A stretch of DNA of 34,722 nucleotides from a virus, in the IMG/VR virus record IMGVR_UViG_3300013130_000018, positions 1 to 34,722 of that record, one strand, 5' to 3'. This document shows positions 285 to 15,143 of the stretch, one piece after another. The position numbers and the translations under genes are program-made. Position 1 is the stretch's first letter, and each line of letters starts with the position of its first letter. The notes under the pieces were generated by a model. It saw nothing but the letters and a program-made list of their open reading frames with translations, was not told the origin of the DNA and ran no database searches.

Positions 285-677
285 TTAATCATTTAATATT
301 TGTTCATCTTCTTCTGGAATAAAAAATTCTTGTTTTGCCGGACGATTTTCTTCAAACCATTCTATTATTGAGTTGATTGCCCAAACAGATCCGGCAGATA
401 ACATTCCGTCAAAGAATACAGAAAAATATTTATTAAGTCCAATAAATTCATTTACTGGCGAAAACATAAACAAGGACAGAAAAAATCCGACCCAGGTTCC
501 TGTACATAACATACAGGATATCAACCCAGATAAAAACTTTCCAACTCCGTTAAATGCGTAATAGTAAGAGTTTCCCCAATTGTGAATCCAATTTCTTACT
601 TCATTAAAAATTGATCCGTAAACTAAAATTGTGGTCATTCCATATGCCACGATCATAAAAATTAAAACTTGTATCAT
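285..677 (-). CDS. Small membrane protein with CxxCxGxW motif (DUF1360-like)
   Basis: The 130-residue product has three hydrophobic segments: residues 2-22, about 42-72 and about 83-104. Between the first two is an amphipathic stretch with Asn and Trp. The second segment contains SCMLCTGTWVGFF, a Cys-x2-Cys-x-Gly-x-Trp pattern resembling the signature of the DUF1360 family (small membrane proteins found in Bacillus spores and in phages). The C-terminus is acidic and probably cytoplasmic. The ATG at 675-677 overlaps the TGA of the upstream coiled-coil gene (ATGA), so the two are probably translationally coupled. The function of the family is unknown to me; the assignment rests on the motif and topology only. 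Confidence 0.6.
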   Translation of the reverse strand: MIQVLIFMIVAYGMTTILVYGSIFNEVRNWIHNWGNSYYYAFNGVGKFLSGLISCMLCTGTWVGFFLSLFMFSPVNEFIGLNKYFSVFFDGMLSAGSVWAINSIIEWFEENRPAKQEFFIPEEDEQILND

Positions 678-1282
678 AATGTATCATTTATATTTGAACC
701 TCTCATAAAAAATCCTTTCATTGGTTTTGTATTACTTTGAAGTTCTTGGTTTATTTTTTCTAATTTATCTATTTTTTGGTTTTTTTCATGTAATTCTTGT
801 CTTAACTTCTGGAGTGTGTCTTGAAGAAGTTTTGTCTTATCATTCTGTTTTGAAATGTCTAAATTACGTCTAAACTCCTCTAACTCTTCATCTTTTTTAG
901 ACATTTCATATTCCAACTTGGCGATTTTTTCACCAAGTTCATTTTCACTTTCTTTGTCACTAATATATTCTATTTTGGTGACAATTTTTTCTACAGGAAC
1001 CTCTTTTATAACTTCAATAATCTTTTCAACTTCCTTTATCACTTCAACCGGTACTTCCACCATTTTCTCAACAATAACTTCCTTTATTAACTGTTTTTCT
1101 TCAACAACACTTATTTTTAAGTCTTTTTCACCCTCATTAAGTGGTTTTCCTAAAAGTCCGTACTTCTCAATATTAAATCCCGACTGAAAACATTTTTCAA
1201 TAAACCCATCAATATCTTCAATATTATTAAGTTTACAATATGCAGACACTGCCTGCATTATTTTTTTATCTTTCAGTTCCAT
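674..1282 (-). CDS. Coiled-coil protein with Val-Glu-rich segment
   Basis: The 202-residue protein starts with a globular-looking region (residues 1-55, including AVSAYCKLNNIEDIDGFIEKC). It continues with a repetitive Val/Glu/Ile/Lys segment at about 65-105, where 'EVPVE' and 'VEKIV' units recur. A long heptad-type coiled coil (about 110-185) ends in a Gly/Phe-rich tail. Such EV-repeat plus coiled-coil proteins are common as uncharacterised proteins in phages. The function is unknown; a rod or oligomerising role is inference. The start is 20 bp after the stop of the HNH gene of module 1, and the stop overlaps the next start. It may once have directly followed the SbcD-like gene before the HNH module entered. 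Confidence 0.7.
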   Translation of the reverse strand: MELKDKKIMQAVSAYCKLNNIEDIDGFIEKCFQSGFNIEKYGLLGKPLNEGEKDLKISVVEEKQLIKEVIVEKMVEVPVEVIKEVEKIIEVIKEVPVEKIVTKIEYISDKESENELGEKIAKLEYEMSKKDEELEEFRRNLDISKQNDKTKLLQDTLQKLRQELHEKNQKIDKLEKINQELQSNTKPMKGFFMRGSNINDTL

Positions 1283-1302
1283 TTGTTATTTTAATATCAC
1301 TT

Positions 1303-1929
1303 TCAATATCTTTTTTCTAAATTTTCATACCACCAAAGAGGTTGTAAATTTGTAAAATGACACAACTTATAAATTTCATCTTCAGTTTTACCACTCACCA
1401 ACGGAACAATATGATCTATATGCCAACCATTCAATCCATAGTTTTCCCAATTCATCCCTTCCTTAAATTGTTTTTCAATATGTTCTTTTAATTTTATTGG
1501 TTCGCACCCAACAATTTCAAATGTTTTATTTTTTTTTGTTATGTTTTTACTTTTAAAAAAATTTTTAACTCTACTTCTAATGTTACATCTTAATTTAAAA
1601 ATAATGTCGTGTTTTTTTCTTTTTTTTCCGTAATTTTTTATTTTTTCTTTATTATTTTCTTTCCATTTTTCAACTCTTATTTTTTGTTGATCCTTAGTGT
1701 TTTGTCTATATTTTTTCTTTGTTTCTTTATGGTTTTCAATATTTCTATAATATGTTTCCCTATTCCATTTATTAGTCTTTTCTTTATTTGTTTTACGATA
1801 TTTGTTAATTTTAACTCTGGTACAAACTTTACATTCATTTCTAACACCGTCTTTTGAATCTTTCCTACTGTGGAAGTCAATTATTTGTTTTTCAACAAAA
1901 CAAACATTACAAATTTTTGTATCTTTCAT
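1303..1929 (-). CDS. HNH endonuclease, free-standing homing type (module 1)
   Basis: The 208-residue protein has an N-terminal zinc-finger-like region with two Cys pairs (C7/C10, C33/C36). A long, very Lys/Asn/Arg-rich helical linker (about 38-110) follows, probably for DNA contact. The C-terminal HNH nuclease core has WHIDHIVPL (H170, D172, H173), then LCHFTNLQPLW with the conserved Asn near 194 and a final ENLEKRY. This order is typical of phage free-standing HNH endonucleases that cut DNA and promote their own spread. Its start lies inside the 3' end of the ribbon-helix-helix gene (23 bp overlap). It is clearly paralogous to the HNH gene at 4375-4932. Catalytic residues are intact, so it is probably active. 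Confidence 0.88.
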   Translation of the reverse strand: MKDTKICNVCFVEKQIIDFHSRKDSKDGVRNECKVCTRVKINKYRKTNKEKTNKWNRETYYRNIENHKETKKKYRQNTKDQQKIRVEKWKENNKEKIKNYGKKRKKHDIIFKLRCNIRSRVKNFFKSKNITKKNKTFEIVGCEPIKLKEHIEKQFKEGMNWENYGLNGWHIDHIVPLVSGKTEDEIYKLCHFTNLQPLWWYENLEKRY

Positions 1930-2068
1930 CTTTATAATCTTTAAGAAGTTTATTTACCAAAGAAGATAAATTAATATGTAATGACCGATAAAATTTTAAT
2001 AATTCAGGATCAAGAGCAACAGACACTTTAGTTTTTTTATCTTCATCTTTTATTTTTAATCTTCCCAT
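1907..2068 (-). CDS. Ribbon-helix-helix (CopG/Arc-like) small protein, module 1
   Basis: A 53-residue frame runs from ATG 2066-2068 to TAA 1907-1909. The sequence begins MGRLKIKDEDKKTKVSVALD and contains a short beta strand (TKVSVAL), helix (DPELLKFYRSL), turn (HINLS) and second helix (SLVNKLLKDYKDE). That is the strand-helix-helix layout of CopG/Arc-type DNA-binding proteins. The gene is almost the twin of 4913-5071, sharing KKTKVSVALD and YRSLHINLSSLVNKLL. Its end overlaps the start of the HNH endonuclease gene by 23 bp, which implies joint expression. A regulatory role over the nuclease is inference; it could also be an antitoxin-like partner, although no toxin domain is seen. Confidence 0.8.
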   Translation of the reverse strand: MGRLKIKDEDKKTKVSVALDPELLKFYRSLHINLSSLVNKLLKDYKDERYKNL

Positions 2069-2107
2069 ATATAATATAAATACCTCAATAAATTAAAAAG
2101 TGTGAAT
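2069..2107 (-). promoter_or_regulatory. Leader of RHH/HNH module 1, shared with module 2
   Basis: On the minus strand this stretch holds ATTCACACTTTT (complement of 2096-2107), then TATTTATA (complement of 2075-2082) six bases before the start codon. The same two elements in the same order, nearly the same distance apart, precede module 2 (5072-5107). The conservation between paralogous modules suggests a promoter and/or an operator for the RHH protein. This is inference from the pairwise comparison. Confidence 0.45.
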
Positions 2108-2115
2108 AATAGTAA

Positions 2116-2895
2116 TTAAATATTTAATAATTTTTCTGTTCCGTTTTCAATATCCTCAAACGATTTTATTGAAAATTTTAAGAAAGGTTTAGGATTAAAT
2201 AATTCTTTATATTCGTATTTTTTACTTTCAACGTTATACAAACCATATCCGTGTTTGGTTATTGATTCTCCAATGTTTTGTTGTATACAAGACCCGATCA
2301 TAAATCCTTTACCTGTTTTAAAATTAAATTCTTGTCTTTTGTGTATATCACCACATAAAACCATATCTAATCCATTAAATTTATCAACATCATATGCGTG
2401 TTCCCCAAAATCATACCCTAAATCAGTGGTCATTCCTTGTATGGGTCCGTGAAATAATCCAATTTTGATACCCTTGGCAAAACTTAAATCCGGTGGAATG
2501 TTTCCTTGAAATTGTGAGTATACGCACCAACTAATATTTTCATCTTCATATATACCTCTATCTTTATAATAATATAATTTTTTATTATTTAAATTATCAA
2601 CTATGGGTGTTATACTATCCAGTCTATCTTGATTATTTAAATTAGTATCGTGATTTCCAGGAATTATAATTGTTTTTGCAATATATGAACATTCTTTTAA
2701 AATCCAACTAACCATTTCAATAAGTTCAGGTGTCATTTGGTTTTTAGAATGAACAAGGTCTCCAGTAAAAATAATTCTATCCGGTTTAATTTCTTTCCAC
2801 TGATTGATAGCGTCTTCAAGTATTGACTTATACAAGTCATGATCCTTAAATAATCGAATGTGTAAATCCGAAAAGTGTATTAGTTTTCTAATCAT
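2116..2895 (-). CDS. SbcD/Mre11/T4 gp47-like metallophosphoesterase
   Basis: The 259-residue protein has the full set of calcineurin-type phosphoesterase motifs: FSDLHI (D10, H12), FTGDLVHS (D46), PGNHDTN (N81, H82, D83), FHGPIQG (H149) and CGDIHKRQ (D183, H185). These bind two metal ions and cut phosphodiester bonds. This arrangement matches SbcD/Mre11 and T4 gp47, the nuclease subunit that pairs with an SbcC/gp46 ATPase in recombination and replication-end processing. It is shorter than T4 gp47 (about 340 residues) and seems to lack much of the C-terminal region. No SbcC/gp46 gene is in the window; it may lie beyond position 1. The start overlaps the upstream small gene by 8 bp. Confidence 0.85.
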   Translation of the reverse strand: MIRKLIHFSDLHIRLFKDHDLYKSILEDAINQWKEIKPDRIIFTGDLVHSKNQMTPELIEMVSWILKECSYIAKTIIIPGNHDTNLNNQDRLDSITPIVDNLNNKKLYYYKDRGIYEDENISWCVYSQFQGNIPPDLSFAKGIKIGLFHGPIQGMTTDLGYDFGEHAYDVDKFNGLDMVLCGDIHKRQEFNFKTGKGFMIGSCIQQNIGESITKHGYGLYNVESKKYEYKELFNPKPFLKFSIKSFEDIENGTEKLLNI

Positions 2896-3127
2896 TTAAT
2901 TGTTGTTTATTCTCGAATGTAATATCCCAAGATGGTGATGTTGGATTATGTTTAGGTATTGGGTTAACTGGAACTGGTATTTGCTCAAATTGTTTAATTA
3001 ACAACTGTGGTTTTTCATCAACCTTACTCATTTTTTCAACAATTGGTGTAATATCAATATGTTTACTCTCAAGTTTACCGGTTAAATACCCTTCTAACCA
3101 AATGTAAAATTCTTTATAACTTAACAT
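2888..3127 (-). CDS. Hypothetical 79-residue protein
   Basis: The product begins MLSYKEFYIWLEGYLTGKLE, a short helical region, and ends in a Pro-rich tail (PVPVNPIPKHNPTSPSW). The pattern 'F..WLEGYL' resembles small uncharacterised phage proteins, but I cannot name a family. It overlaps the upstream 48-residue gene by 7 bp and the downstream phosphoesterase gene by 8 bp, so it belongs to the same tightly coupled operon. No catalytic motif, signal peptide or membrane segment is visible. Confidence 0.65.
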   Translation of the reverse strand: MLSYKEFYIWLEGYLTGKLESKHIDITPIVEKMSKVDEKPQLLIKQFEQIPVPVNPIPKHNPTSPSWDITFENKQQLND

Positions 3128-3267
3128 AACTCTCTACAATAAAGGTTTGCCAACACAATTTTTGCAAATTTAAATTCTTTTGCTCTGTTTAATCTTAATC
3201 CATACGCCAAAGCCACTGTTTTAAGGTGTGGATATGCTTCGCTGATTGTCATTTTTCCTAGTTCCAT
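3121..3267 (-). CDS. Hypothetical 48-residue protein
   Basis: A short frame runs from ATG 3265-3267 to TAA 3121-3123. It starts MELGKMTISEAYPHLKTVAL and ends FAKIVLANLYCRELC, and is predicted to be helical. It fills the gap between two neighbours exactly: its ATG is 2 bp after the stop of the zinc-ribbon gene and its end overlaps the next start by 7 bp. The fit and the ordinary amino-acid composition support a real gene. The family is not recognised. Confidence 0.6.
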   Translation of the reverse strand: MELGKMTISEAYPHLKTVALAYGLRLNRAKEFKFAKIVLANLYCRELC

Positions 3268-3269
3268 GG

Positions 3270-3488
3270 TTAATCAACAAATAATTCAAAGTCTTTGTTA
3301 ACATGTTCGCATTCATTACACATATAGGTTGGAAATGGTACAATGGTGTCTTCATGACTTCCGGTTAATAATTTAGGAACTTTTTTTAACATGGTTACTT
3401 CTTTGAAGAACTTTGACTCACACTTTTCACATTTTAATGTTTCTTGTTGTCGTAAGTCAATTCTTGGTTTAATAATTTCGTCGCTCAT
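3270..3488 (-). CDS. Small zinc-ribbon protein
   Basis: The 72-residue product carries two Cys-x2-Cys pairs (CEKCESKFF near residue 19 and CNECEHVNKDF near residue 57), separated by a beta-rich stretch. This is the usual layout of a zinc ribbon. Such proteins in T4-like phages are mostly uncharacterised and may bind nucleic acid or a protein partner. It lies 23 bp downstream of the PD-(D/E)XK nuclease gene, within the replication/recombination operon. Zinc binding follows from the Cys pattern; any specific role is unknown. Confidence 0.7.
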   Translation of the reverse strand: MSDEIIKPRIDLRQQETLKCEKCESKFFKEVTMLKKVPKLLTGSHEDTIVPFPTYMCNECEHVNKDFELFVD

Positions 3489-3511
3489 AATTTTTTTATT
3501 AAAAATATAGT

Positions 3512-4378
3512 TTATTTTTTAAGGTTAGTCAAATACTCTTTCATGTCCATTTCTAAAATGGTATTGATTGTTTTTCTTTCAACACGATATTCAATAAATT
3601 CTCTATCATCCGTTAATCTGACGATAATACAACCCAGAATTTTAATATCTTGATACTTCGTTCCTTCCAACATTTTTAATAACAATTTACCATAAAATGG
3701 TAATTGAGTATGATAATGTCCTAAAGCATTATTTGGTAAATATTCAAATGGAATTCTCATGGGTTTTATGTATTTTTGAGTAATAAAGTTTTTTTCTTTA
3801 TTTGTTTTATAATCGGTTATTATTATACCAAACCCATCTTTATTTTTATTTTCAATCAACCACCCAGTATCCCCCTGTCCAGTATAACCCAATTCGGGAT
3901 GTCCCAGAACAATTTCAGTATCGATCAAATGAGCACCTCGATCTTTCATTGTCTCTAAAAATTTTTTCCCAGCAGTAACCATAGAATCGCTTTTAATGAT
4001 TTGTAAGGGATCACAATTAAATATTGGTTCTCGTATTGTTTTATTGTAATTGAACATTTCTAATGAATACTTCTCCAATAAAAAGTGAACTCTACTACCG
4101 ATATTAGTTGAATATTCACCTGATAATCTCCATTCATTAAGTAATTCTTCTGTTTTATCAGGATCACCTCCTGACATTTCAAACGCCTTTTTTTCGGATG
4201 GGAATTCATCATAAAATGCCTTCATAACTTTAGATACTGAAGGCCAATCGTCAGTTAATTTACCATCTAAATCTAGCATTGTGTATTTATGAGTTTCTTC
4301 TTCAAAGGTTAGTTGAAATTCTTTCCTTTTTTCATCCAAAATTCGTCTAATGTCTAATACAGTTTCTTCTATTTTCAT
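3512..4378 (-). CDS. PD-(D/E)XK nuclease, Cas4/RecB-like
   Basis: The 288-residue protein shows the ordered motifs of the RecB/Cas4 nuclease group. These are GSRVHFLLEKY (H98), an acidic site near E155, GQGDTGW (D170), IIITDYKTNK (D189 and K191 as the D-x-K pair) and HYHTQLPFYGKLL (Gln-x3-Tyr-type motif near 225-229). These enzymes cut DNA with metal ions, often as exonucleases in end processing. No iron-sulphur Cys cluster is evident, unlike classical Cas4. The start codon shares ATGA with the stop of the HNH gene of module 2. Neighbouring primase and SbcD-like genes support a role in DNA replication or recombination. Confidence 0.8.
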   Translation of the reverse strand: MKIEETVLDIRRILDEKRKEFQLTFEEETHKYTMLDLDGKLTDDWPSVSKVMKAFYDEFPSEKKAFEMSGGDPDKTEELLNEWRLSGEYSTNIGSRVHFLLEKYSLEMFNYNKTIREPIFNCDPLQIIKSDSMVTAGKKFLETMKDRGAHLIDTEIVLGHPELGYTGQGDTGWLIENKNKDGFGIIITDYKTNKEKNFITQKYIKPMRIPFEYLPNNALGHYHTQLPFYGKLLLKMLEGTKYQDIKILGCIIVRLTDDREFIEYRVERKTINTILEMDMKEYLTNLKK

Positions 4379-4932
4379 AATATTTTTTTTCCTTTTTTAT
4401 AATTTTCTTCACACCATAATGGTTGTAAGTTTGTGTGGTGACATAATTTGAACACGTCTTCTTCAGTATTTGCCGATGATAATGGGATTACATGGTCAAT
4501 ATGCCATCCCTCGTGGTTATGATTATCCCATGTCATTCCATGTGTAAATTGTTTTTCAATATAAATTTTAAGTTCTTCAGGTGTACAACCAACAATATTA
4601 TATGTGTTATTAATCTTAATGTTAAAGTTGGTACTCTTTAAAAAAAGTTTAACCCTGTTTCTAATATTAAATTTTAATTTATATAAAACATCATTCTCAT
4701 ATTTTTTTTGATGTCTTTCGTTTCTATTTTTTTTGACTGTTTCCAAATTATTTTTTTGGTAGGATACTTGTCTTTGTATTTCTTTATCAATATTAGAGTA
4801 ATAAAACTTTTTATATTCTTCTCTTGTACAATCTTTACATCTATATCTTAATCCGTCTTTACTATATTTGTCTTTATTATATTCACATAACTGTTTTTCT
4901 TCTAAACATTTTCTACACACCTTTGTTTCCAT
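4375..4932 (-). CDS. HNH endonuclease, free-standing homing type (module 2)
   Basis: The 185-residue protein has N-terminal Cys pairs (C6/C9 and C32/C35) and a Lys/Asn-rich linker. The C-terminal HNH core is GWHIDHVIPL (H144, D146, H147) with LCHHTNLQPLW (N168) and EENYKKGKK. It is paralogous to 1303-1929 over the whole length: IRNRVK, NIVGC, IEKQF, GMTWDN and the HNH core all correspond. The linker is shorter than in module 1. Its start lies within the RHH gene (20 bp overlap) and its TGA overlaps the ATG of the nuclease gene, so the module sits in the operon without breaking the next gene. It is probably an active homing-type nuclease. Confidence 0.88.
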   Translation of the reverse strand: METKVCRKCLEEKQLCEYNKDKYSKDGLRYRCKDCTREEYKKFYYSNIDKEIQRQVSYQKNNLETVKKNRNERHQKKYENDVLYKLKFNIRNRVKLFLKSTNFNIKINNTYNIVGCTPEELKIYIEKQFTHGMTWDNHNHEGWHIDHVIPLSSANTEEDVFKLCHHTNLQPLWCEENYKKGKKIL

Positions 4933-5071
4933 TTTTATAATCTAAAAGTAGTTTATTAACCAGTGAAGATAGATTGATATGTAAGGATCTATAGTATTCT
5001 AAAAGCTCTTTATCCAGTGCAACAGATACTTTTGTTTTCTTGTCCTCTTCTTTTTTTAACTTTCTTCCCAT
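4913..5071 (-). CDS. Ribbon-helix-helix (CopG/Arc-like) small protein, module 2
   Basis: A 52-residue frame runs from ATG 5069-5071 to TAG 4913-4915. It begins MGRKLKKEEDKKTKVSVALD and continues with helix ELLEYYRSL, turn HINLS and helix SLVNKLLLDYKN. This gives the strand-helix-helix order of CopG/Arc DNA-binding proteins. About three quarters of the residues match the module 1 copy at 1907-2068. The two copies differ mainly at the extreme C-terminus, where each overlaps its own HNH gene. It probably represses or tunes its own module; this is inferred from position and fold. Confidence 0.8.
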   Translation of the reverse strand: MGRKLKKEEDKKTKVSVALDKELLEYYRSLHINLSSLVNKLLLDYKNGNKGV

Positions 5072-5107
5072 AATAATAAATATACTAAAATTTGTAAAAG
5101 TGTGAAT
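5072..5107 (-). promoter_or_regulatory. Leader of RHH/HNH module 2, shared with module 1
   Basis: The minus strand reads ATTCACACTTTT (complement of 5096-5107), followed by TATTTATT (complement of 5075-5082) three bases before the start codon. The same elements precede module 1. The leader begins 8 bp after the primase stop codon, so it may give the module its own promoter inside the operon, or it may mark the left edge of the inserted unit. Confidence 0.45.
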
Positions 5108-5114
5108 ATTATTA

Positions 5115-6011
5115 CTATTTAATTATTACATAATAGGGATCAATTTCCCCCTTTAAATCACAAACATCTTTATCTGTTGGTAATTTAACTATTTTTATTC
5201 TACCCCATAATTCACCTCCATTTAATTCGTGATATAGTTTTACACCATCTTTAAACGCATCCCCATCCAAACAAATAATAACATCTTTTTTACAATTTTT
5301 GTATATTGTTTCAAATAAAAGTTCGGACATATGTTTTCCAAGCATAGGAATTGAGTTATTTAAAAATAACCCATCGAATACACCTTCGACTAAATGTATA
5401 TCTTGATTCCAGTCAATTAAACTTTCCCAAAATATTATCTTTTCTTTTTCTGCTTCTGGATTCTTGTATTTAGCCTTTGTAAATGGATACCAACTTCTTG
5501 CAACATAATAATTCAATTCTCCTGTTTTACTAAAAGATGGAATTACAATTCGACCAGCATGATCTCCTTGATCACAAAAACCAATTTGGTATTTTTCAAT
5601 CATATAATCGGAAATTCCCCGATTATGTAGGTAATTTATAGCAGCCTTTCTGACAGGATAAACAGGATGTGATTCTGAAAATTTTGTGAAGTGATCTGGA
5701 AGTTTTAGTTTTTTTCTTACCCTTTCTTTTTTTTCTTTGGTTTCAGGTCTTAATACTTGAAATAATTTTTTTTGTTTTTTATTTGCGTATTTGTCAAAAA
5801 GTTTTCCCAAAGACCCGTGTGTTCCCTCATAGTCACCACACGCCCAACATTTATAGACATTTTCAATATAGTTAATTTCTAGATTGTGTTTGTTTCTATC
5901 TTCATCACAGACCGGGCAGTTGAATGATATTTGACCTCGGTTCGGATAGTGTAGACCGTGATCTCCTAAAACATCTTCCAATAATTCAACTAAACCTTCA
6001 TTTTCGTCCAT
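5115..6011 (-). CDS. DNA primase (CHC2-type zinc finger plus TOPRIM), T4 gp61-like
   Basis: The 298-residue protein starts with a primase-type zinc-binding region (CPVC at 32-35, CWAC at 55-58). After a basic linker comes a DnaG-like core with YLHNRGISDYMIEKYQIGF, then TOPRIM motifs: LVEGVFDGLFL (E209), IICLDGDAFKDG (D249, D251) and LPTDKDVCDLKG. Primases of this group make short RNA primers for lagging-strand synthesis and act with a replicative helicase. It is somewhat shorter than T4 gp61. No helicase gene is in view; it may lie elsewhere in the genome. The gene is followed directly by RHH/HNH module 2. Confidence 0.88.
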   Translation of the reverse strand: MDENEGLVELLEDVLGDHGLHYPNRGQISFNCPVCDEDRNKHNLEINYIENVYKCWACGDYEGTHGSLGKLFDKYANKKQKKLFQVLRPETKEKKERVRKKLKLPDHFTKFSESHPVYPVRKAAINYLHNRGISDYMIEKYQIGFCDQGDHAGRIVIPSFSKTGELNYYVARSWYPFTKAKYKNPEAEKEKIIFWESLIDWNQDIHLVEGVFDGLFLNNSIPMLGKHMSELLFETIYKNCKKDVIICLDGDAFKDGVKLYHELNGGELWGRIKIVKLPTDKDVCDLKGEIDPYYVIIK

Positions 6012-6048: not shown

Positions 6049-7362
6049 TTATGATTGTTGAGTCTGTATTGGTGTTAATTTTAAATAAACATATCTTTTA
6101 TTATCTTCCGTCTGTAGATTTTGATTAACCCCTTTTGATGTAATATTTAATTCTCCTATTTTGTCAAATGACGTGTATAGTGTTGCAGAATAATTTGGCG
6201 GTTGTCCAGTTATGTTTGTGGTAATTGTGAATGTTGCAAATAATTGTGAAATATTACTTGAAGGTACTCCATCAACAATAATTTTTCGATTTAAAAAATT
6301 AAGTGCTCGTTTTGCTTTAGTTGTGTCGTTTTTTTCCGGAACTTGATTTAAATAAACTTTGGATGGTGTATAACCCGATATTTTAATTTCTCCGCTTTGA
6401 TATTTGTTTAAAAATTTGTCGAGTAGTTGTTCTCCATTATCTAGTGGTGCCGCTCCTACCGTTTTTCTAAAAACTTGAAGTCTGGTAAATTGGTCCGCGT
6501 CATTAATAATGTTGTTTTGCATATATTGTTCTTGATTGAAATTTTCGTGGGTTTTTAAGTAAGCGGGTTCTCCATTTTTGGTTAAGAAATTGTCGATAAT
6601 ATGACCCATCTCATGTTTAATGGTTTGGTCCATTGGACTTATATAATTTTTTCCGTCGTGCATTGAAAAAACATTTAGATTAATTGTTTTGTATCTTGGT
6701 TCGTTGAGTTGTGTAGTAGTTTTTGGATTATATACCCAACCATATGCATTTTTTACAGGTGTTGAGTTTTCATCATAATAATCTTTAAACAATCCTAGAC
6801 TACTAATATATTGTTTTAGTGGAACCACAAGGTTTTTATTTTTAAATTTACCAACAGTCCCTGGATTTGAGTACCAATCAAGATATTCTTGTTTGGCCCT
6901 TGAAATTAAATTTCGAATATCGGTTTTAATTTTTTGTTTAAGTGGTGACACTGGTTGATTATTATTGGAACCCATTTCACTTAAATATTTTTTTCCATAA
7001 TATCTCCAAGCTTCTTTTGTTCTTTTACCATACAATCCGTCAACACCATCTTTTTTTGGTCCAAATGGTCCCAAATTATGATTTGGATAGTTTTTTTTAA
7101 CCCAAGTTTGGAATTTTGCGCATTCTGTTTTGTTTTTTAATTTAGGTTCGTATTCGGCCGGTGACATTGCGGATACATTTTGCTCTGGATTTTTTGTATT
7201 TTCTTGTTTCCAAAAAGTGTTTGCGTTTGGATTTTCTTTTCCTAGACTATCTGAACAATAGTCTGCACTTGTTATATCGCTAGAATTTTCGCCATCTTCT
7301 TTTATGATGAATTTTTTCAAATACTGTATTTGACTTTCCGTTAAAAAATATTTTTTGTTCAT
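6049..7362 (-). CDS. Putative zinc metalloprotease (HEMGH) with peptidoglycan-binding-like segment
   Basis: I take the start at ATG 7360-7362 (437 residues, MNKKYFLTESQIQYLKK...). An ATG 30 bp upstream is in frame, but a TATTTATT box lies between them, and FLTESQ at the N-terminus is a pattern I recall from other Bacteroidota phage proteins. Residues about 82-127 (CAKFQTWV ... GVDGLYGKRTKEAWRYYGKKY) resemble a peptidoglycan-binding-1 domain, with the DGxYGxxT core. TIKHEMGHIID at 248-257 is a zincin HExxH active site (H250, E251, H254); the third zinc ligand is not obvious. The C-terminal part is beta-rich and unassigned. Cutting host cell-wall or surface peptides, or phage protein maturation, is possible but unproved. 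Confidence 0.7.
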   Translation of the reverse strand: MNKKYFLTESQIQYLKKFIIKEDGENSSDITSADYCSDSLGKENPNANTFWKQENTKNPEQNVSAMSPAEYEPKLKNKTECAKFQTWVKKNYPNHNLGPFGPKKDGVDGLYGKRTKEAWRYYGKKYLSEMGSNNNQPVSPLKQKIKTDIRNLISRAKQEYLDWYSNPGTVGKFKNKNLVVPLKQYISSLGLFKDYYDENSTPVKNAYGWVYNPKTTTQLNEPRYKTINLNVFSMHDGKNYISPMDQTIKHEMGHIIDNFLTKNGEPAYLKTHENFNQEQYMQNNIINDADQFTRLQVFRKTVGAAPLDNGEQLLDKFLNKYQSGEIKISGYTPSKVYLNQVPEKNDTTKAKRALNFLNRKIIVDGVPSSNISQLFATFTITTNITGQPPNYSATLYTSFDKIGELNITSKGVNQNLQTEDNKRYVYLKLTPIQTQQS

Positions 7363-7435: not shown

Positions 7436-7666
7436 ATGAATGATATGCCAGTAGATATTACAATTTCTTCAATTACAGGTCAATCACCGTTTAACATATT
7501 TATTTGTGATTCAGGTGCCACAACTTGTATATATGTAAATACAATTTCGATTTCGGATATTCCTTATAAATTCGGAGTTCCTGTTGTGTATGAAAACATG
7601 AGTAGTTTTAATGTTCGTGCTGTTGACGCAAATGATTGTCAAATTAATGAAATAGTGAATAAATGA
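7436..7666 (+). CDS. Small adhesin-like beta domain protein
   Basis: The 76-residue product is a single small beta-rich domain: DITISSITGQSPFNIFICDS, then a Cys pair (ICDSGATTCIYV), a hydrophobic mid-section and NVRAVDANDCQINEIV. It is alignable with the 72-residue product of 16245-16463 (ITI...G..PF...CD....C...; V.A/LVD..C..). Both resemble one unit of the SprB-type repeat seen in Bacteroidota adhesins. An internal ATG at 7445 (MPVDITISS) could be the true start. The stop overlaps the ATG of the next gene (ATGA). It is probably a virion tip or fibre component; the role is inferred from homology to the fibre-cluster gene. Confidence 0.65.
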   Translation: MNDMPVDITISSITGQSPFNIFICDSGATTCIYVNTISISDIPYKFGVPVVYENMSSFNVRAVDANDCQINEIVNK

Positions 7667-9219
7667 TGTCGTGTTCAATTTCAACATACTGTGTAAAAAC
7701 AGAACTTGAGTCCTATGACGGTGAGTATAACATCGCAGGAACTCAAAATGGTCAAGACTATTTTACTGGCGGAAGTTATTTTATCTATTATTCTTTAACT
7801 GGTGGTAGTTTATGGTGTTTATCCACAGTTTTGGATGGTTCTTGTTTACAATTTGGCCCAAGTCCGTCTTCTTCAAGTTGTCCAGATTTGGATTTATCGT
7901 TTTTTTCGTCCGGATCTTGTCCTACTGTAACCACAACCACAACTTCACCTTGTGATGTCTTTGATTTTACTGCGGTTTTTGATTGTTTGGTACCACCGAC
8001 AACAACAACGACAACCACAATACCTCCAACTACCACCACAACTACAACTATATTTGACGCTTGTAAGGACAATGGTATGATTGTAATATTGAGTGCATAT
8101 ACAACAACGACAACAACTTTACCTGTCACGACAACAACCACCACAACGGTTGTAAGACCCTGTAATTTTAGTGGGACAGCACAATTTAACATATTTGACG
8201 AATATATGAGATGTGGAAATACAAAACTATTTAAAGATTGTATTACAGGATTAGAATATTTTTCTTCTCAAGTTCTTTTAACTCCTTTTGGTACTTCACC
8301 AATTCAAAATTATGTTTATAAAATAGATGTTAATGGTGTTGAGTCTTGTGTTGTGTTCATAGGTCTTGTTGATAACATTAGTGGTATTGATCAAATAGAA
8401 ATAAAAGAAGAACTGGGTCCTGAATTGGAAGGTAAATGTCTTGATTGTGTTCCTGAACCTTTTCCAAATTGTATAACAATACATTCTGAATGTGGTGAAT
8501 TAACAATTAATCCAATTGATAATTTAAATGGTAAACCTCATTATGTTTGGAGTTTTTTGAACATACCTGGCGTTCCTTTTGAAATTTACTGGGATAATTC
8601 AAATAACAGGTGGGTTGTTCAAAACCAAGTCGTTGGAATACCTGCGGCGTACCTTGATATTGATTCGCCGTTACCTTCAGGATCTTTAGTAGAATGGGAA
8701 GATACAAATCTTTATTTTGTATGTGTGAGTACGGTAGCTGGATTTTATACTTCAATACCTACAACTCCTTGTCCTGGTCAGGAACCGGAAATTTGTTATT
8801 GTTATATTTTATTTGGTGGTGATTTGTTTCCACAAACAGTATTTGATTTGAATGGTTGTGATGGTAAATTATCTAGTGTTACGGTACCTTCTGGAACTAC
8901 AGGTTATACTTGTTCATTCACAGTACCATCTGTTGTTTCTGGCGATGGTATTGTTTTAGGTATTTTAAGTACTTGTAGTGCCGATTGTCCGGTTCCTGTT
9001 CCGACACCAACACCTGAACCTTGTGTGTTATATCAATTTAATGTTTATAATGGATCTATTTTGACAAATCAATTTACATATCAACTATGTGATGGATCTT
9101 TAGTTACAAATACTATTAATTCATATCAAACTGTTGTTATTTGTTCTTCAACAACACCAACGTCACCATCTGGTAATGTTCAAATAACAAGTCCTATTAC
9201 ACCTATACCTTGTTCATAA
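7663..9219 (+). CDS. Modular Cys-rich tail/adhesin-like protein with polythreonine linkers
   Basis: The 518-residue protein is built from small extracellular-type domains. Residues 1-75 have the pattern of a recurring beta unit (YDGEYNIAG ... GGSLWCLS). Residues 88-162 hold five Thr runs (5-7 Thr each) split by short Cys-containing pieces. Residues 167-265 are unassigned. Residues 268-350 hold a second beta unit with FEIYWDNSNNRWVV. Residues 374-450 are Cys-rich, then PTPTPEP leads to a C-terminal domain (454-518) like the tandem repeats of the 980-residue protein at 9930-12872 (CVLYQF ... VVICSST). No signal peptide is seen. It and the small upstream gene are the only plus-strand genes here. 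It is probably a virion adhesion protein. Confidence 0.7.
   Translation: MMSCSISTYCVKTELESYDGEYNIAGTQNGQDYFTGGSYFIYYSLTGGSLWCLSTVLDGSCLQFGPSPSSSSCPDLDLSFFSSGSCPTVTTTTTSPCDVFDFTAVFDCLVPPTTTTTTTIPPTTTTTTTIFDACKDNGMIVILSAYTTTTTTLPVTTTTTTTVVRPCNFSGTAQFNIFDEYMRCGNTKLFKDCITGLEYFSSQVLLTPFGTSPIQNYVYKIDVNGVESCVVFIGLVDNISGIDQIEIKEELGPELEGKCLDCVPEPFPNCITIHSECGELTINPIDNLNGKPHYVWSFLNIPGVPFEIYWDNSNNRWVVQNQVVGIPAAYLDIDSPLPSGSLVEWEDTNLYFVCVSTVAGFYTSIPTTPCPGQEPEICYCYILFGGDLFPQTVFDLNGCDGKLSSVTVPSGTTGYTCSFTVPSVVSGDGIVLGILSTCSADCPVPVPTPTPEPCVLYQFNVYNGSILTNQFTYQLCDGSLVTNTINSYQTVVICSSTTPTSPSGNVQITSPITPIPCS
7924..8148 (+). repeat. Polythreonine linker array
   Basis: This segment encodes five runs of 5-7 threonines separated by short pieces (for example IPP, LPV). 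The Thr codons are a mixture of ACA, ACC, ACG and ACT, so the runs are not simple recent trinucleotide expansions. The same style of run occurs in the 980- and 746-residue proteins. Long valine-rich frames on the opposite strand are by-products of these runs. Confidence 0.85.
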
Positions 9220-9274: not shown

Positions 9275-9877
9275 TTATTTCCAGATCTCTTGAGACTTCA
9301 TAAAACCTAAAACACATGTGTATGCATCTGTTTGGTCAAAACATTCTTTTTTAAGTGTGTTGTTTTTGGTATAAGCCCATGTAATTTGTGGTTCTCTTTT
9401 AGCAACCTTTTCCCACACAATCATTTTTTTATCCACATCTTTTGGTAAACCACCAAATAAAACATATTTTCCCTTGTCATTTGGTTGTACTAATTCTGGC
9501 CAAGCAAATTTTCTTGAGTTATACGTTGATATAAATTCTGGAACAATACCTAGAATTGTATAGATTTCTTTGGATATAAAACTATTAAATCTTAATAGTG
9601 TTTGAATTGTATAAATATTATTTGAGTTCAACAGTGGTTCTTCAATTACAACTTTAACGATACCCAAGTTTTTATATGTTTCTAATTTACTCGAAAATAC
9701 CTCAGCCTTTAATAATAGTTCCAACATTTTTTCTTGAGTTTTAACTTTTGGTCTAGGTGAAATATGTGTTAGTTCTAACAACTCTTCACTTTTAATATCA
9801 AATAATGCCCATCCGATTGTTTTGGTGGATATATCAAGACCCAAAACCTTTGGGGTGTTTTTAACTGCTCGACTCAT
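9275..9877 (-). CDS. RuvC-like Holliday junction resolvase
   Basis: The 200-residue protein has a ribonuclease-H-like resolvase fold signature: VLGLDISTKTIGWAL (D15), KVVIEEPL (E79/E80) and ECFDQTDAYTCVLGF near the C-terminus (D181, D184). These give the acidic residues that bind metal at a RuvC-type active site. Phages use such enzymes to resolve branched DNA before packaging, a task done in T4 by the unrelated gp49. It is the last gene of the right-hand minus-strand operon and is followed by a strong hairpin terminator. It lies 52 bp after the tail-fibre gene, and an AT-rich gap with TATAATATTTC may give it extra transcription. Confidence 0.82.
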   Translation of the reverse strand: MSRAVKNTPKVLGLDISTKTIGWALFDIKSEELLELTHISPRPKVKTQEKMLELLLKAEVFSSKLETYKNLGIVKVVIEEPLLNSNNIYTIQTLLRFNSFISKEIYTILGIVPEFISTYNSRKFAWPELVQPNDKGKYVLFGGLPKDVDKKMIVWEKVAKREPQITWAYTKNNTLKKECFDQTDAYTCVLGFMKSQEIWK

Positions 9878-9929: not shown

Positions 9930-12872
9930 TTAAATATCTATTTTAATAACGTATTGTTGAATGCCTTGTCTTAATGTTGGTGATTGTAATTTAGACATAA
10001 CTAAAATATCTTTATTATCATCTAACAACGCAATTTCAGTAACATATGATTTAGATCCAAAAGTCCATGATGGGTTTGTTGAAACCTGAAACTCTGTTGA
10101 GCTTAAATTAATTTTATATTTCATCTCATAAATAGTTGCCGCGATGTCGGTTTCGATTCCACCATAGAAATAATACTCGTCACCAAAATTTAATTTTGGT
10201 CCTGTTGTATTATTTGGTGTCAACTTTATAAAATTGTTAAGATTATAAAATGGTGCTGAATTATAGTTATCTGGTGAAATTATAAATGTGGTACCGGTCA
10301 AAGAATCTTGTGTAATCCAACCATTAATAAAGTCATTACTGATCTGACTGGTGAAATCAATAAGTTTCCACTGTGTAGGATCTGGTCTTTGTCCTGTTGG
10401 TACTTTTTGTGCCAAAATTTGAAATTTATCAGCAAAATATCCTAAAGGTAGATCACAAGTTGGACAAAAAGTTGTGGTGGTTGTTGTAATTGGTAACGTT
10501 GTCGTTGTAGTTGTTGTGGGACAAGACGGACAATTACCAGTATTTGTTATTGTTGATGCCGATGAACTTGGTATAATAACAGTACTTGAACAAATAATTG
10601 CACTTGTTGATTGTGGTAAAGTATATGGTGATGTTTTTGTTTCTCCACAACAAGGCGTAAAAGTTAATGTAATACTTTTTGTGTCTGTATTTGTTATTTG
10701 GTACGAGTCACATTGTGGTAATGTTGTGGTTGTTGTTGTACATCCAGGACAATCACCTAAATTGGTTATTGTCACCGCAGATGAAATTGGGTTAATATCG
10801 GTGCTTGAACAAAGTTGTGTACCTGTCAATCCGGGTAATGCTAGTGGTGATGTTTTTGTTTCATCACAACAAGGTGTAAACGTTACGACCACACCTTTAA
10901 TACCATTATTAATTATTTGATATCTTTGACAAACTGGTATTGTTGTGGTTGTGGTTGTGATTGGAAATGTCGTCGTAGTCGTAATTGGTGTATATCCTGG
11001 TTGTACCAAACATCCAAATTCTCCGCCAAATCTAACGGCAACATTTTTAGATACATCCGGATTACATTCGTTGTTGTTTCCAACAATATATGGATAATAA
11101 TTACAATGAAGTGACTCTGTGTAACAATATTCATTAGATAATCTATATGTTATAAACATAGTTTCACTATTTCCTGTTAGAATTCCTTGAGAAGAAGATG
11201 TTGTGTCACAAGTATTTGGTGTGATCAATGATACTTGAGGTGCTGGTAATGTCCAATTACGATTTGATTTGTAAGACATTGCTGCAATTATTTCCTCATC
11301 ATCAATCACTATTAGTTTACTGTCTGGAAAAACTTTACCTATCCTACTAGGATATCCATCTGTATTTGCAAAATTATCCCACAAATGATAATACCTTAAT
11401 CCAGGATTATTCATATCATCATTTTTTTTGGATTTTAAAAAATATGGTCGTAGTAAATCTAATTCTTCGAATCCTGGAGGGTCTACCCAAAATGTTTGTC
11501 CAAAACAACAATCTGGATTTTTGTGCCACATCAACCAAGGAATATAAACTCTAAAGTTTCTTGCTTGACCCATGGTATTGAGTGGGTTCACGGTGTCAAA
11601 TAGTTCGAGAGCAAATTTTTCACCATAAAAGAAATCTATTGTTTGATTTGTATAATGAATTATTGAAATTGCTTTTTGTTCTTCTGGAGTTACAGTTATT
11701 TTTTCATCAAATGAGTTATAATAAAAAACGGAACTTGTATCTGTTTGACCTGAACTAGAGTTATAACCAAAATATTCTTTACTTCCAATGTAATTTATCG
11801 ATCCAAATTTGGTGTAATCTTCATATGTATTTGGAATTAACCCCGCTGGGTTTTCAGTCCACGGAATATTCATGTTCCAAACTTTAACATCAAACTGATC
11901 CGTATCACAAATAGATTCAAAATCTATTACCTGTTCACCCCAATGTGGTGAAGGGGTAATACTATCATAAATTTGATTCATATTAGGCGGATATATTAAA
12001 ACTCTTGAGTAACAATTTAATGGAAAACAAGAATAATCTGGGGTATTTCTATCTAATGTGATCTCATTTAAACAAACATCAACAATTCTATATGTTAAAA
12101 TTGTAAAACAACTATTAAAAGGCATGAAACATTCAGGTGCCGGAGGAAGTGGACATTGTGGGCTTGGCGATGGTGTAAAACAAGGTGTTTTACTTGGTGT
12201 TGGTGTAGGTGTAGGTGAAGCGCATGGATCACCAGAAAAAGTCGTTGTAGTTGTAGAAATTGATGATGAAACGCTTGGTGTTGGTGTTGGGGTTGGGGTT
12301 GGTAAATTCACACATTCACAGTTGTATTTTGCGTTACCGTCAAAATATATTGTCACAATATCACCTATTTGTGGCGTATTTGTTATTGAGGTATTACATC
12401 CAGAATAAATTAATGTTATTTTGTTAGTGCCATTTACAGTAGACATATCAACCACGTAATTTGGTGTTCTAACATATTTATCACCTATTAAAACATCCCA
12501 GTTTATTGTACTGGCGGTTGTGTTTCCACTAAAAAAACCTCGAAGTGGAGCTCTGTTAAAAACTTGATCAATAACAGAATCCATAAAAGGAATACCATAT
12601 GTATTACTTTGATTTGAATCCGCATAATATGGATATTTTACATATTGTTTGTTAGATTGTGGAATACCGCTAGCGTTTTGGCTATTAAATTGTGGTTCTA
12701 AAACGAAACTATTACTTTGTACGTAAGATCCTGGAAGTTTATCGTATGACACTTCGCTATCTCCAATTTGGAAATACGAAATTTTAAAATTTCCTTGCGA
12801 TATTTTTTGTCTTCCAACGTCAGTTATTCTTGTACTGACTAAACCTGATGTATTTTTTAATATGTATGCCAT
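9930..12872 (-). CDS. Large tail-fibre-like protein with Pro-Thr linkers and tandem Cys repeats
   Basis: The 980-residue protein begins with MAYILKNTSG and TRITDVGRQKISQGNFKISY, a phage fibre-like N-terminus. A (PT)n/Ser/Thr linker follows at 191-245. A long beta-rich region with aromatic and Trp-rich segments occupies 250-625. Thr runs at 631-645 lead to two tandem 64-residue Cys repeats (648-711 and 721-784), each bracketed by Thr runs (712-717, 786-801). A C-terminal domain (about 805-980) contains DPTQWKLIDFTSQ and resembles a fibre end. Linkers seem to be inserted between parts of one large fibre. A TATTTATC box lies 7 bp before the start. It probably contributes to the distal tail or receptor contact; the receptor is unknown. 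Confidence 0.72.
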   Translation of the reverse strand: MAYILKNTSGLVSTRITDVGRQKISQGNFKISYFQIGDSEVSYDKLPGSYVQSNSFVLEPQFNSQNASGIPQSNKQYVKYPYYADSNQSNTYGIPFMDSVIDQVFNRAPLRGFFSGNTTASTINWDVLIGDKYVRTPNYVVDMSTVNGTNKITLIYSGCNTSITNTPQIGDIVTIYFDGNAKYNCECVNLPTPTPTPTPSVSSSISTTTTTFSGDPCASPTPTPTPSKTPCFTPSPSPQCPLPPAPECFMPFNSCFTILTYRIVDVCLNEITLDRNTPDYSCFPLNCYSRVLIYPPNMNQIYDSITPSPHWGEQVIDFESICDTDQFDVKVWNMNIPWTENPAGLIPNTYEDYTKFGSINYIGSKEYFGYNSSSGQTDTSSVFYYNSFDEKITVTPEEQKAISIIHYTNQTIDFFYGEKFALELFDTVNPLNTMGQARNFRVYIPWLMWHKNPDCCFGQTFWVDPPGFEELDLLRPYFLKSKKNDDMNNPGLRYYHLWDNFANTDGYPSRIGKVFPDSKLIVIDDEEIIAAMSYKSNRNWTLPAPQVSLITPNTCDTTSSSQGILTGNSETMFITYRLSNEYCYTESLHCNYYPYIVGNNNECNPDVSKNVAVRFGGEFGCLVQPGYTPITTTTTFPITTTTTTIPVCQRYQIINNGIKGVVVTFTPCCDETKTSPLALPGLTGTQLCSSTDINPISSAVTITNLGDCPGCTTTTTTLPQCDSYQITNTDTKSITLTFTPCCGETKTSPYTLPQSTSAIICSSTVIIPSSSASTITNTGNCPSCPTTTTTTTLPITTTTTTFCPTCDLPLGYFADKFQILAQKVPTGQRPDPTQWKLIDFTSQISNDFINGWITQDSLTGTTFIISPDNYNSAPFYNLNNFIKLTPNNTTGPKLNFGDEYYFYGGIETDIAATIYEMKYKINLSSTEFQVSTNPSWTFGSKSYVTEIALLDDNKDILVMSKLQSPTLRQGIQQYVIKIDI
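10521..10931 (-). repeat. Two tandem 64-residue Cys-rich repeats
   Basis: Residues 648-711 (10740-10931) and 721-784 (10521-10712) of the fibre protein align closely. Shared features are C..YQI.N, TFTPCC.ETKTSP, a LP.. segment, CSST, SSA.TITN and a closing C(P)xC. They are separated by TTTTTTLPQ. The C-terminus of the 518-residue plus-strand protein (about 9022-9216) is a diverged third member, retaining the Cys spacing and VICSST. Confidence 0.85.
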
Positions 12873-12902: not shown

Positions 12903-15143
12903 TTATAATTTAGGTGTTGGTGGACCAAACGATGGATTTATTATAGTAACAGGACAACACTCACATTCATTTACAACAGCATTTGATATGAATATTGTAA
13001 AACTATTATTATCACCCGAACAATCATCATTAGGTGCGTTTATTATTGTATTTGTGTATGATCCGGTGATGATTTGATTATTAGTTAAAGTAAACGTGTT
13101 TCCATATTCTTTATGCTCATTATTTTTTGGTGTTGGTGTTATTGAGCAATATGGCAAAATTATAGTTTGAAATTGTTGGTTAATATTTTGTGTTAAAGGT
13201 CCAAATCCAGACACCGAAACAAGGTTATTATAAACCGGGATTGGGCTTGAGCTTGCTGGGTAATATCCGAAATCACTGACGTGATTAATATCGAATGTGA
13301 GTGTTAATCCTGATGGTAAATTAGATGAAATAACAAAGGTTTGTGATAATGTATTTGCCGATAATTGTACTGTAACTGCCGGTGCTGGTAAAGATGGTAC
13401 ATTAACTAATTTAAGAATTACTGTTCCGATTGAATCTTTAACGTAAACTTGGTAATTTGACGGTCCTAGATTTTGGAATATAGGACTTTGCTGATATGTA
13501 AGTCCGTTATTTATTGAATATTGATATGGTGGTGTTCCTCCTATGGCGTTTATTATCATAGACCCATTATTTCCACATTGTGCTGGAGTTACAGACGTAT
13601 CAAAATCAATTATACTTGATGGTGAACAATTACCAGTCAAAATAACCATATTATTATATTGGAAACTTCCGAGTATTTGCCATCCTGTTAGTGGTGGTGT
13701 GGATGGATTATTATTAATGAAACTTACACCAACAAATGTATTTCCAGTAAAAATCCAGTTGTTTGTATTTCCAGTGTTCCAATATAATGTATATTGACTA
13801 CCAGATGAAGACCATGATGGGTATTCGTTTATATCAACATCTGGTTCTAATTGAAACTGTTGGATTTCATATCCTTTAGGTGCTCTTACTGTCATATTAA
13901 CACATAAATTTTCGTATGATGGTGGAGGAGCAATAGTTGTTGTTGTGGTTGTTGTTGGTGTTTCTGCGGTAAGAATACAAGTAGTAATGGCAGTGAAATC
14001 ACCATAAAAGTCAGTAATTGTCGCCGGGTATTGACCAAAGTCTAAATTTGTTATTGTTTGTCCAATACTTCCAATATCCCATGAAATTGTATATGGTGGA
14101 GTTCCTCCGGTTATTATAAGGGTCGCTTCTCCATCATATGCGTTAGGTCTTGTTGGATGTTGTACCATACAAAAAACTTCCATAGGAAAAATAGTCAAGA
14201 CATCACATTCGTTTCTTGATCTGATTGTTGCCACTGATTGTGGTGGGCATTCTCCGTCAATACAAAGACCTCCAAGTTTTACTGGTATTATTTTTTCAGT
14301 ATCAAAGTATGGTCTTACATAACTACAAATACTAAATGTTTGTCCGGTTGGTAAATATAATTTTAAAAAATTATAATTACAATCAACAAAACTGGTTTCG
14401 AATTGTTCTTCTGGTGTTTTAAAAATAAAACATCTGCAGTTACATTCAGTGGATGCGGAAAGTATTGTGAAGGACACGTCATTTCTACACCCAATAACTC
14501 CCATGTCCGAAACTAGAAATGGTGTGTTTGGGGTGCTTGGAATTGGTCCTGTAATATCAATATATACAAAAGTATTTACATATGCGGATAAAGATGGATC
14601 ATCACTTGTTATCATTTCTTGTAATCCATCACAAGCCATTAATGAATAACATTGTTTTATACATGGATTTTCTTCTAAACATTGTTGACAGCCCAAATCC
14701 TGATAAATTTGATATTCGTTAATAGCACTTACTAAATTGCCAACTATTGGTGGTGTTGATGAAAAGTTTTTGGAGTATATTCTTGAACACTGAAAGGTTT
14801 GTGATAACCCGCTATTACTTAAAATAAAGTTATTTCCGTATATTACATCATCTATTGATAATTGGGAATTAGATCCCATAAATGTAAAAAATTGAGTGTC
14901 TTCACAACATGAACTGAAATAAAATGCCGTATCGACTTTTGATATTGACAAGGTGATTATATTTCCTGATGTGTTACCGCTTATTTGATCATCTAAACAA
15001 AAATTTAATACTGTTTCTGTGTTTGGTTGTACAAATACTGTATTTGTATTTCCACTGCAGTCGACAAATATCAGATTATCTTCTGTAAATCCCGTATTTT
15101 TTACGTGTAATACCCTACAACTATTATAACAACTTAAACTCAT
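12903..15143 (-). CDS. Modular adhesin/tail protein with SprB-type repeats
   Basis: The 746-residue protein is a chain of extracellular-type domains. Residues 1-85 resemble the Cys repeat unit of the fibre gene (CRVLHVKNTG ... VDCSGNTN ... VLNFCLDD). Residues 150-310 are Cys-rich. Residues 338-392 form a SprB-type repeat (LIITGGTPPYTISWD ... YPATITD). TPTTTTTTT at 395-403 is a linker. Residues 414-505 contain the YTLYWNTGNTNNWIF unit also found in the 518-residue protein. Residues 523-575 form a second SprB-type repeat (GGTPPYQYSINNG ... NYQVYVKD). The C-terminus has a CECCP cluster. SprB repeats are typical of gliding-associated adhesins of flavobacteria. The gene ends 30 bp before the fibre gene and begins directly at the stop of the glycosyltransferase gene. 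Confidence 0.72.
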   Translation of the reverse strand: MSLSCYNSCRVLHVKNTGFTEDNLIFVDCSGNTNTVFVQPNTETVLNFCLDDQISGNTSGNIITLSISKVDTAFYFSSCCEDTQFFTFMGSNSQLSIDDVIYGNNFILSNSGLSQTFQCSRIYSKNFSSTPPIVGNLVSAINEYQIYQDLGCQQCLEENPCIKQCYSLMACDGLQEMITSDDPSLSAYVNTFVYIDITGPIPSTPNTPFLVSDMGVIGCRNDVSFTILSASTECNCRCFIFKTPEEQFETSFVDCNYNFLKLYLPTGQTFSICSYVRPYFDTEKIIPVKLGGLCIDGECPPQSVATIRSRNECDVLTIFPMEVFCMVQHPTRPNAYDGEATLIITGGTPPYTISWDIGSIGQTITNLDFGQYPATITDFYGDFTAITTCILTAETPTTTTTTTIAPPPSYENLCVNMTVRAPKGYEIQQFQLEPDVDINEYPSWSSSGSQYTLYWNTGNTNNWIFTGNTFVGVSFINNNPSTPPLTGWQILGSFQYNNMVILTGNCSPSSIIDFDTSVTPAQCGNNGSMIINAIGGTPPYQYSINNGLTYQQSPIFQNLGPSNYQVYVKDSIGTVILKLVNVPSLPAPAVTVQLSANTLSQTFVISSNLPSGLTLTFDINHVSDFGYYPASSSPIPVYNNLVSVSGFGPLTQNINQQFQTIILPYCSITPTPKNNEHKEYGNTFTLTNNQIITGSYTNTIINAPNDDCSGDNNSFTIFISNAVVNECECCPVTIINPSFGPPTPKL

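Follow-up and report, generated by a model that had tools for sequence, protein, structure and literature searches.

The virus record analysed here (IMG/VR IMGVR_UViG_3300013130_000018; the 34.7-kb, 34,722-nucleotide stretch referred to as the window) carries two units on its minus strand, at 1303-2115 (module 1) and 4375-5115 (module 2), in each of which a matching leader precedes a gene for a small ribbon-helix-helix (RHH) protein and an overlapping gene for an HNH endonuclease. From comparison with relatives and related loci (given L-numbers such as L004 and L017), we consider both modules likely to be site-specific, free-standing homing endonuclease cassettes, each with a dedicated RHH autorepressor. 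The original prediction, made from the window alone, took the dedicated RHH partner as a sign of a self-regulated homing unit, a proposal that gains support from natural empty sites, site-specific clades, co-transfer of flanking DNA and an operator that tracks the RHH β-strand, and that loses some to the HNH relatives that stand alone. The parts of the two modules are as follows.

2096-2115, minus strand: operator-like block of module 1, TTACTATTATTCACACTTTT, placed by leader alignment, its sequence tracking the RHH β-strand
2076-2082, minus strand: promoter-like box TATTTAT of module 1, separated by 7 nt from the RHH1 ATG
1907-2068, minus strand: RHH1, a 53-residue ribbon-helix-helix protein, CcdA-like by Pfam (Pfam and AlphaFold2)
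1303-1929, minus strand: HNH1 endonuclease, 208 residues, with a zinc knuckle, a helical middle and an HNH C-terminus (phrog_1035, 2e-22)
5096-5115, minus strand: operator-like block of module 2, GTAATAATATTCACACTTTT, its first base also being the final position of the primase stop
5076-5082, minus strand: promoter-like box TATTTAT of module 2, separated by 4 nt from the RHH2 ATG
4913-5071, minus strand: RHH2, a 52-residue ribbon-helix-helix protein (Pfam CcdA, 27.2 bits; 75% identical to RHH1)
4375-4932, minus strand: HNH2 endonuclease, 185 residues (phrog_1035, 1e-18; 90% identical to the same-site HNH of L058/L017)

The two units with a common leader, RHH proteins of 52-53 residues and gene overlaps of 20-23 bp are thus present as first described, the overlap being 23 bp between RHH1 and HNH1 and 20 bp between RHH2 and HNH2. 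The modules are indeed paralogous in sequence (75% identity between the RHH proteins and 49% between the HNH proteins, with dN/dS of 0.14 and 0.31, respectively), and each is in addition orthologous by site to modules of other phages. Against close relatives the module open reading frames (ORFs) give dN/dS of about 0.05-0.17, indicating purifying selection. The leader starts at the stop codon of the upstream gene, and at the other end of module 2 the HNH2 stop TGA shares ATGA (4375-4378) with the start of the next gene. That the module is harmless to that gene, as had been supposed, finds support only insofar as the reading frames stay intact.

The RHH family proved to be tied to nucleases well beyond the window. 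Loci from RHH-only queries of viral contigs, an HNH-only query and leader-pattern matches were analysed jointly, and the 208 RHH ORFs reduced to 125 units differing in RHH sequence or leader, of which two run off the contig, leaving 123 that could be judged. An endonuclease lies downstream of the RHH gene in 120 of these, being an HNH protein in 115, a PD-(D/E)XK/NUMOD3 protein in three and a LAGLIDADG protein in two; NUMOD3 was found in both of the PD-(D/E)XK-like partners tested (L242, L248), with L319 alike by eye, and one LAGLIDADG partner was tested (L128), with L215 near-identical by eye. The genes overlap by 20 bp in 72 cases, 23 bp in 18 and 11 bp in 16. Co-occurrence elsewhere had been set beforehand as the point on which the proposal could fail, and more than 100 other distinct loci carry the pair; the RHH-HNH unit is widespread in related aquatic phages. 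RHH1 found no match at E 0.01 among 50,697 records of cultured phages, and a search of the genomes of 84,980 bacterial and archaeal species gave no confirmed RHH match.

The three RHH loci that lack a nuclease continue directly into the next phage gene (L021, L192) or into a methyltransferase-like gene (L116). The orphan genes at L021:6001-6159 and L192:3602-3787 have kept their operators, with stop codons overlapping the next start, and are possible resident repressors of incoming modules, while at L116, from position 322 onward, the RHH gene overlaps a long ORF that is apparently a cytosine methyltransferase with an interrupting intein.

Nearly all module leaders share an order of parts, in which an operator-like block is followed by GATATTTAT or TATTTAT and then, usually 3-8 nt on, by the ATG. 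The presence of such leaders at modules elsewhere had likewise been named as a point of possible failure, and the leader pattern alone, used as a query of viral contigs, retrieves modules: it yielded at least 120 stretches; among the matches listed, 31 stand in front of an RHH gene (one a weak case), with others preceding GIY-YIG-like and HNH-like nuclease genes and non-nuclease genes. Within the window, both leaders contain ATTCACACTTTT and TATTTAT, as claimed, and exact ATTCACACTTTT is found in these two leaders only (the total of 12 occurrences with up to two mismatches is at chance level). TATTTAT, by contrast, is not module-specific, occurring no more than 30 nt before five of the 27 other gene starts in the window (0.35 expected at random positions), so it was ruled out as a mark of the module and instead suggests a phage-wide promoter-like element, a putative promoter.

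Two further observations concern this box. It lies a short way upstream of the starts of structural genes at 12872, 22620, 31992 and 34371 (minus strand), among others, making it a candidate promoter motif of the phage group; in some cases it is so close to the start codon that transcripts would have almost no leader. GIY-YIG-looking genes stand directly after the GATATTTAT box, with no RHH gene, at L142:2606 (plus strand) and in L182 (minus strand).

The case for self-regulation turns on the operator-like block of about 20 bp. In the main operator class, comprising 36 aligned leaders (35 distinct), a conserved TTGTGAATATTCACACTTTT carries a dyad, with the three C of CACAC reaching about 3 bits each and one dyad centre prominent (0.67 complementary, against 0.47 for the next). 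By analogy with Arc, residues 14, 16 and 18 of the RHH strand are expected to face the DNA, and strand type and operator do go together: in KSA proteins the operator is mostly TTGTGAATATTCACACTTTT-like, SSA proteins go with TTGTTAAAAATAACAACTTT or a similar block, the KAS type (KIKFAISL) goes with AAAGTATAACTTTTCATACTTT, and two other operator types accompany KGS proteins. In a partial Mantel test with HNH and helix 2 as controls, operator similarity correlated with that of the RHH strand (r=0.38, p=0.001), compared with 0.11 for operator against HNH similarity and 0.03 for a control region further upstream against the strand. A 10-nt spacer between operator and gene tracks the strand less well (r=0.23) than does a 10-nt piece of the operator (r=0.51), which speaks against linkage alone. 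The tracking of the strand by the operator supports self-regulation. Across ten phages of 60-309 kb, the operator core, TCACACTTTT, is present once per genome, next to an RHH gene, in nine, and the tenth (73.5 kb) has a single extra copy; its restriction to the module in the nine gives no sign of a wider regulon.

Natural exchanges between modules point the same way. On the HNH tree, 45 changes of RHH class are needed as opposed to 52.5 after shuffling, and starred branches force at least seven for the SSA class. In two pairs, L252/L300 and L241/L284, the HNH proteins are 96% identical, but operator, strand and helix 1 differ, identity resuming in the INLSSLVNKLL codons in the first pair and near the gene overlap in the second; in both, operator and recognition strand have been exchanged together. 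As read from these alignments, this shows that an operator-RHH head has been exchanged between HNH genes. Together with the covariation, these swaps suggest that the RHH protein binds the operator in its own promoter through the β-strand. The nuclease can also be lost, as in L021, where the operator and RHH gene are retained, the HNH gene is gone and the stop codon of the RHH gene overlaps the ATG that follows. A 15-nt in-frame repeat (14/15) is found in module 2.

4926-4940, minus strand: TTATAAAAATGGAAA in RHH2, first copy of the repeat
4388-4402, minus strand: TTATAAAAAAGGAAA in the HNH2 tail, second copy of the repeat

The two copies are in register when read in the frames of RHH2 and HNH2, and L021 has a single hybrid copy; recombination between repeats of the TTATAAAAATGGAAA/TTATAAAAAAGGAAA type would account for so clean a loss of the HNH gene. 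A more speculative extension, to which we give a low probability, is that the operator-RHH head serves as an exchangeable control cassette defining compatibility groups among phage homing endonucleases. A resident RHH protein, even an orphan one as in L021 and L192, would then repress incoming modules whose operator matches its own, and modules could escape by swapping heads through recombination in conserved RHH codons.

Mobility is seen at the insertion sites, which had been predicted to lie beside gp47-like, nuclease and primase genes. This is borne out by the SbcD/gp47-like gene at module 1 and the primase and exonuclease genes at module 2.

2116-2895, minus strand: SbcD/gp47-like nuclease gene, left of module 1 (phrog_100, 3e-22)
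674-1282, minus strand: gene for a 202-residue coiled-coil protein (cc202), right of module 1, overlapping SbcD in empty-site relatives
5115-6011, minus strand: primase gene, left of module 2 (phrog_47, 3e-37)
3512-4378, minus strand: exonuclease gene (phrog_298), right of module 2
2116-2154, minus strand: left copy of a flanking direct repeat, the SbcD 3' tail, which ends the SbcD gene and is carried with module 1
1258-1310, minus strand: right SbcD-tail copy, degenerate in the window, taking in the HNH1 stop (GATATTGA, 1303-1310) and the next ATG (1282), from comparison with L005, L035, L036 and the empty L017 and L021

The operon without modules, which was to be sought in related phages, exists for both. 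Site 1 (SbcD|cc202) carries a module in the window, L004, L005, L007, L035, L036 and further phages; L017, L021, L039 and L055 are empty there, with the end of SbcD overlapping the next gene's start. At site 2 (primase|exonuclease) the window and L017, among others, carry a module, and none is present in L004, L005, L035 and L036. All members of the HNH1 clade lie at site 1 and all members of the HNH2 clade at site 2, and a recent duplication inside the window phage was ruled out, the nearest kin of each module being at the same site in other phages. Among left-hand genes of modules, grouped by protein clusters, are UvsX/RecA-like recombinases (41), DNA polymerases (12), SbcD (8), primases (7) and helicases (7), these names being readings of the sequences, with SbcD and primase additionally matched by search.

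Some 75 nt short of the SbcD stop, identity between the window and L035/L036 rises from 63% to 97%; it runs at 79-98% across the module and drops afterwards, so that the last 75 nt or so of SbcD are near-identical where the preceding 100 nt are at 63%. At site 2, module identity to L017 is about 90%, with the primase at 69-83%, and the window exonuclease protein is 88-90% identical to those of the carriers L017 and L021, compared with 57-67% to those of the empty-site L004, L005, L035 and L036. Such steps at module edges indicate that modules have moved between phages, and these profiles are those of flank co-conversion, with the SbcD tail and the exonuclease gene transferred alongside the module. 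L005, L035 and L036 each contain two copies of the SbcD tail. The copy left of the module forms the end of SbcD; that on the right includes the HNH stop GATATTGA and the start codon of the following gene. L035 and L036 share one identical left tail with the window but have differing right tails, so it appears that the left tail moves along with the module and that the right one is the recipient's own.

The mechanism we envisage is that the TATTTAT promoter-like box would drive the overlapping RHH-HNH operon, and RHH dimers would bind the block directly upstream of it (TGTGAATATTCACACTTTT type), lowering expression, so that the HNH protein would be produced only briefly, for example on entry into a naive phage genome. 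The nuclease would then cut a co-infecting module-free phage at a conserved gene of replication or recombination, and repair of the break would copy the cassette and adjacent host-gene sequence into the cut genome. In this scheme RHH binding, repression rather than activation, cleavage and homing are steps that we infer from sequence.

Several observations weigh against autorepressed homing cassettes. Seen from the HNH side, an RHH gene is present at 43 of 74 judgeable loci and missing at 31 (about 40% solitary), and inspection by eye revealed no diverged RHH in front of the RHH-less genes; taken with the near-constant presence of a nuclease behind the RHH gene, this means that RHH goes with a nuclease while this HNH family can stand alone. 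Dyad symmetry in single leaders does not differ significantly from shuffles (7.85 and 7.61 matches), being found in the aligned class only, and the left half-sites of the window operators are poor. Part of the correlation between operator and strand is linkage, as both lie close together, and read-through within the operon could yield the HNH protein independently of the module's own promoter. A flanking direct repeat as strong as that of the SbcD site was not found at most other sites, and a general target-site duplication, strong at the SbcD site only, was set aside.

Other explanations can be weighed against the same evidence. A toxin-antitoxin pair, in which a CcdA-like RHH antitoxin neutralizes an HNH toxin and so keeps the pair in the phage, would fit the above-cutoff Pfam CcdA match and the antitoxin-toxin gene order with overlap. 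It is nonetheless very unlikely, because the RHH protein (about 50-54 residues) ends at helix 2 and so has no neutralizing tail, its last codons lying within the overlap with the nuclease gene, and because the family precedes three unrelated nuclease classes, its types are shuffled among HNH clades in a way hardly tolerable for a specific protein-protein pair, and HNH relatives without RHH exist; downstream of the RHH gene no CcdB- or BrnT-type toxin was found, only HNH, LAGLIDADG or PD-(D/E)XK nucleases where a toxin would stand.

That the RHH protein activates or times the module as a late switch, or controls neighbouring phage genes, is unlikely in our judgement, even though an operator upstream of the box is in a position suited to an activator and the box resembles elements preceding structural genes, since RHH proteins of such size are mostly repressors and the operator core is restricted to the module in nine of the ten phages. 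Very unlikely, too, is a passenger pairing in which RHH and HNH hitch-hike without regulatory contact and the likeness of leaders reflects common descent: the parts are indeed spread over no more than a few hundred bases, in mobile modules, but head swaps alter operator and strand jointly with HNH and box unchanged, the gene-adjacent spacer tracks the strand less than the operator does, and the RHH family recurs with three nuclease classes at similar overlaps.

Pairing of a CcdA-like antitoxin with a homing endonuclease, with regulation suggested, is already known from a section of a 2025 account of moraphages, in which CcdA/HicB-like antitoxins accompany PacI-like homing endonucleases (PMC12619734). 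Compared by description, those pairs are of the same kind, occur in multiple copies and belong to large aquatic phages with likely Flavobacteriaceae hosts, whereas that section makes no mention of an operator, of insertion or empty sites, of head exchange or of further nuclease partners (PMC12619734). In T4, I-TevI represses its own late promoter and is, like the modules, a homing endonuclease under an operator at its own phage promoter, but it is intron-encoded and itself the repressor, where here a separate RHH protein would repress free-standing nucleases (PMC2988022). The free-standing Seg and Mob endonucleases of T4 share intergenic insertion in phage operons and spread with flanking DNA; no dedicated protein regulator is described for them, control being by promoters, transcript processing and RNA hairpins (PMC2988022). 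CvkR, a MerR-type repressor of CRISPR-associated transposons, similarly provides a mobile element with a dedicated transcription repressor but differs in regulator fold and mobility mechanism (PMC9938897).

Our search of open-access literature, with subscription papers outside its scope, gave no earlier account of the operator code, of head swapping, of partners of the LAGLIDADG or PD-(D/E)XK kind or of the insertion anatomy, all of which appear to be new. How free-standing homing endonucleases are restrained is largely an open question, translational control not being obvious for most of them according to a T4 review (PMC2988022). With a probable dedicated repressor and private operator alongside three unrelated nuclease classes, natural head swaps and empty alleles, autorepression, cross-repression and homing immunity become directly testable, and the matched RHH-operator pairs form a natural series for the study of β-strand DNA recognition.

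At the protein level, RHH1 matches Pfam CcdA at 28 bits (cutoff 22.4), and its AlphaFold2 model (pLDDT 82) has helices at 21-29 and 34-52 with only a turn at 8-10 before residue 21; the Pfam match and an extended segment followed by two helices together fit a predicted β-α-α RHH core. Foldseek with the 53-residue RHH monomer and sequence searches of solved structures with HNH and RHH gave no informative match. Among HNH relatives, the catalytic residues D172, H173, N194 and N203 are intact and invariant in 46 proteins, as are the zinc cysteines, phrog_1035 is endonuclease VII, and the top Foldseek match of HNH1 is Hpy99I, over 40 columns only (E 0.17). The AlphaFold2 model of the HNH protein comprises a zinc region, a row of helices of about 15 residues and a poorly modelled C-terminus, the helical middle possibly being a modular DNA-reading array or ruler. 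In HNH1 and its relatives this middle varies in length from 77 to 139 residues (184-185 in two).

Elsewhere in the window, the baseplate and primase genes have their closest, but distant, counterparts in Flavobacterium phage immuto, a Microcystis phage and a metagenomic phage. Long tail-like proteins with poly-threonine linkers (TTTTTT) are encoded at 7663-9219 (plus strand), 9930-12872 and 12903-15143 (both minus), with a 331-residue glycosyltransferase-looking ORF beside them at 15144-16139. A 200-residue protein at 9275-9877 (minus strand), starting near KVLGLDISTKTIGWALFD, looks like a RuvC-type resolvase, with no significant Pfam match, and a protein with an HEMGH motif at 6049-7359 (minus strand) is a possible zinc metallopeptidase.

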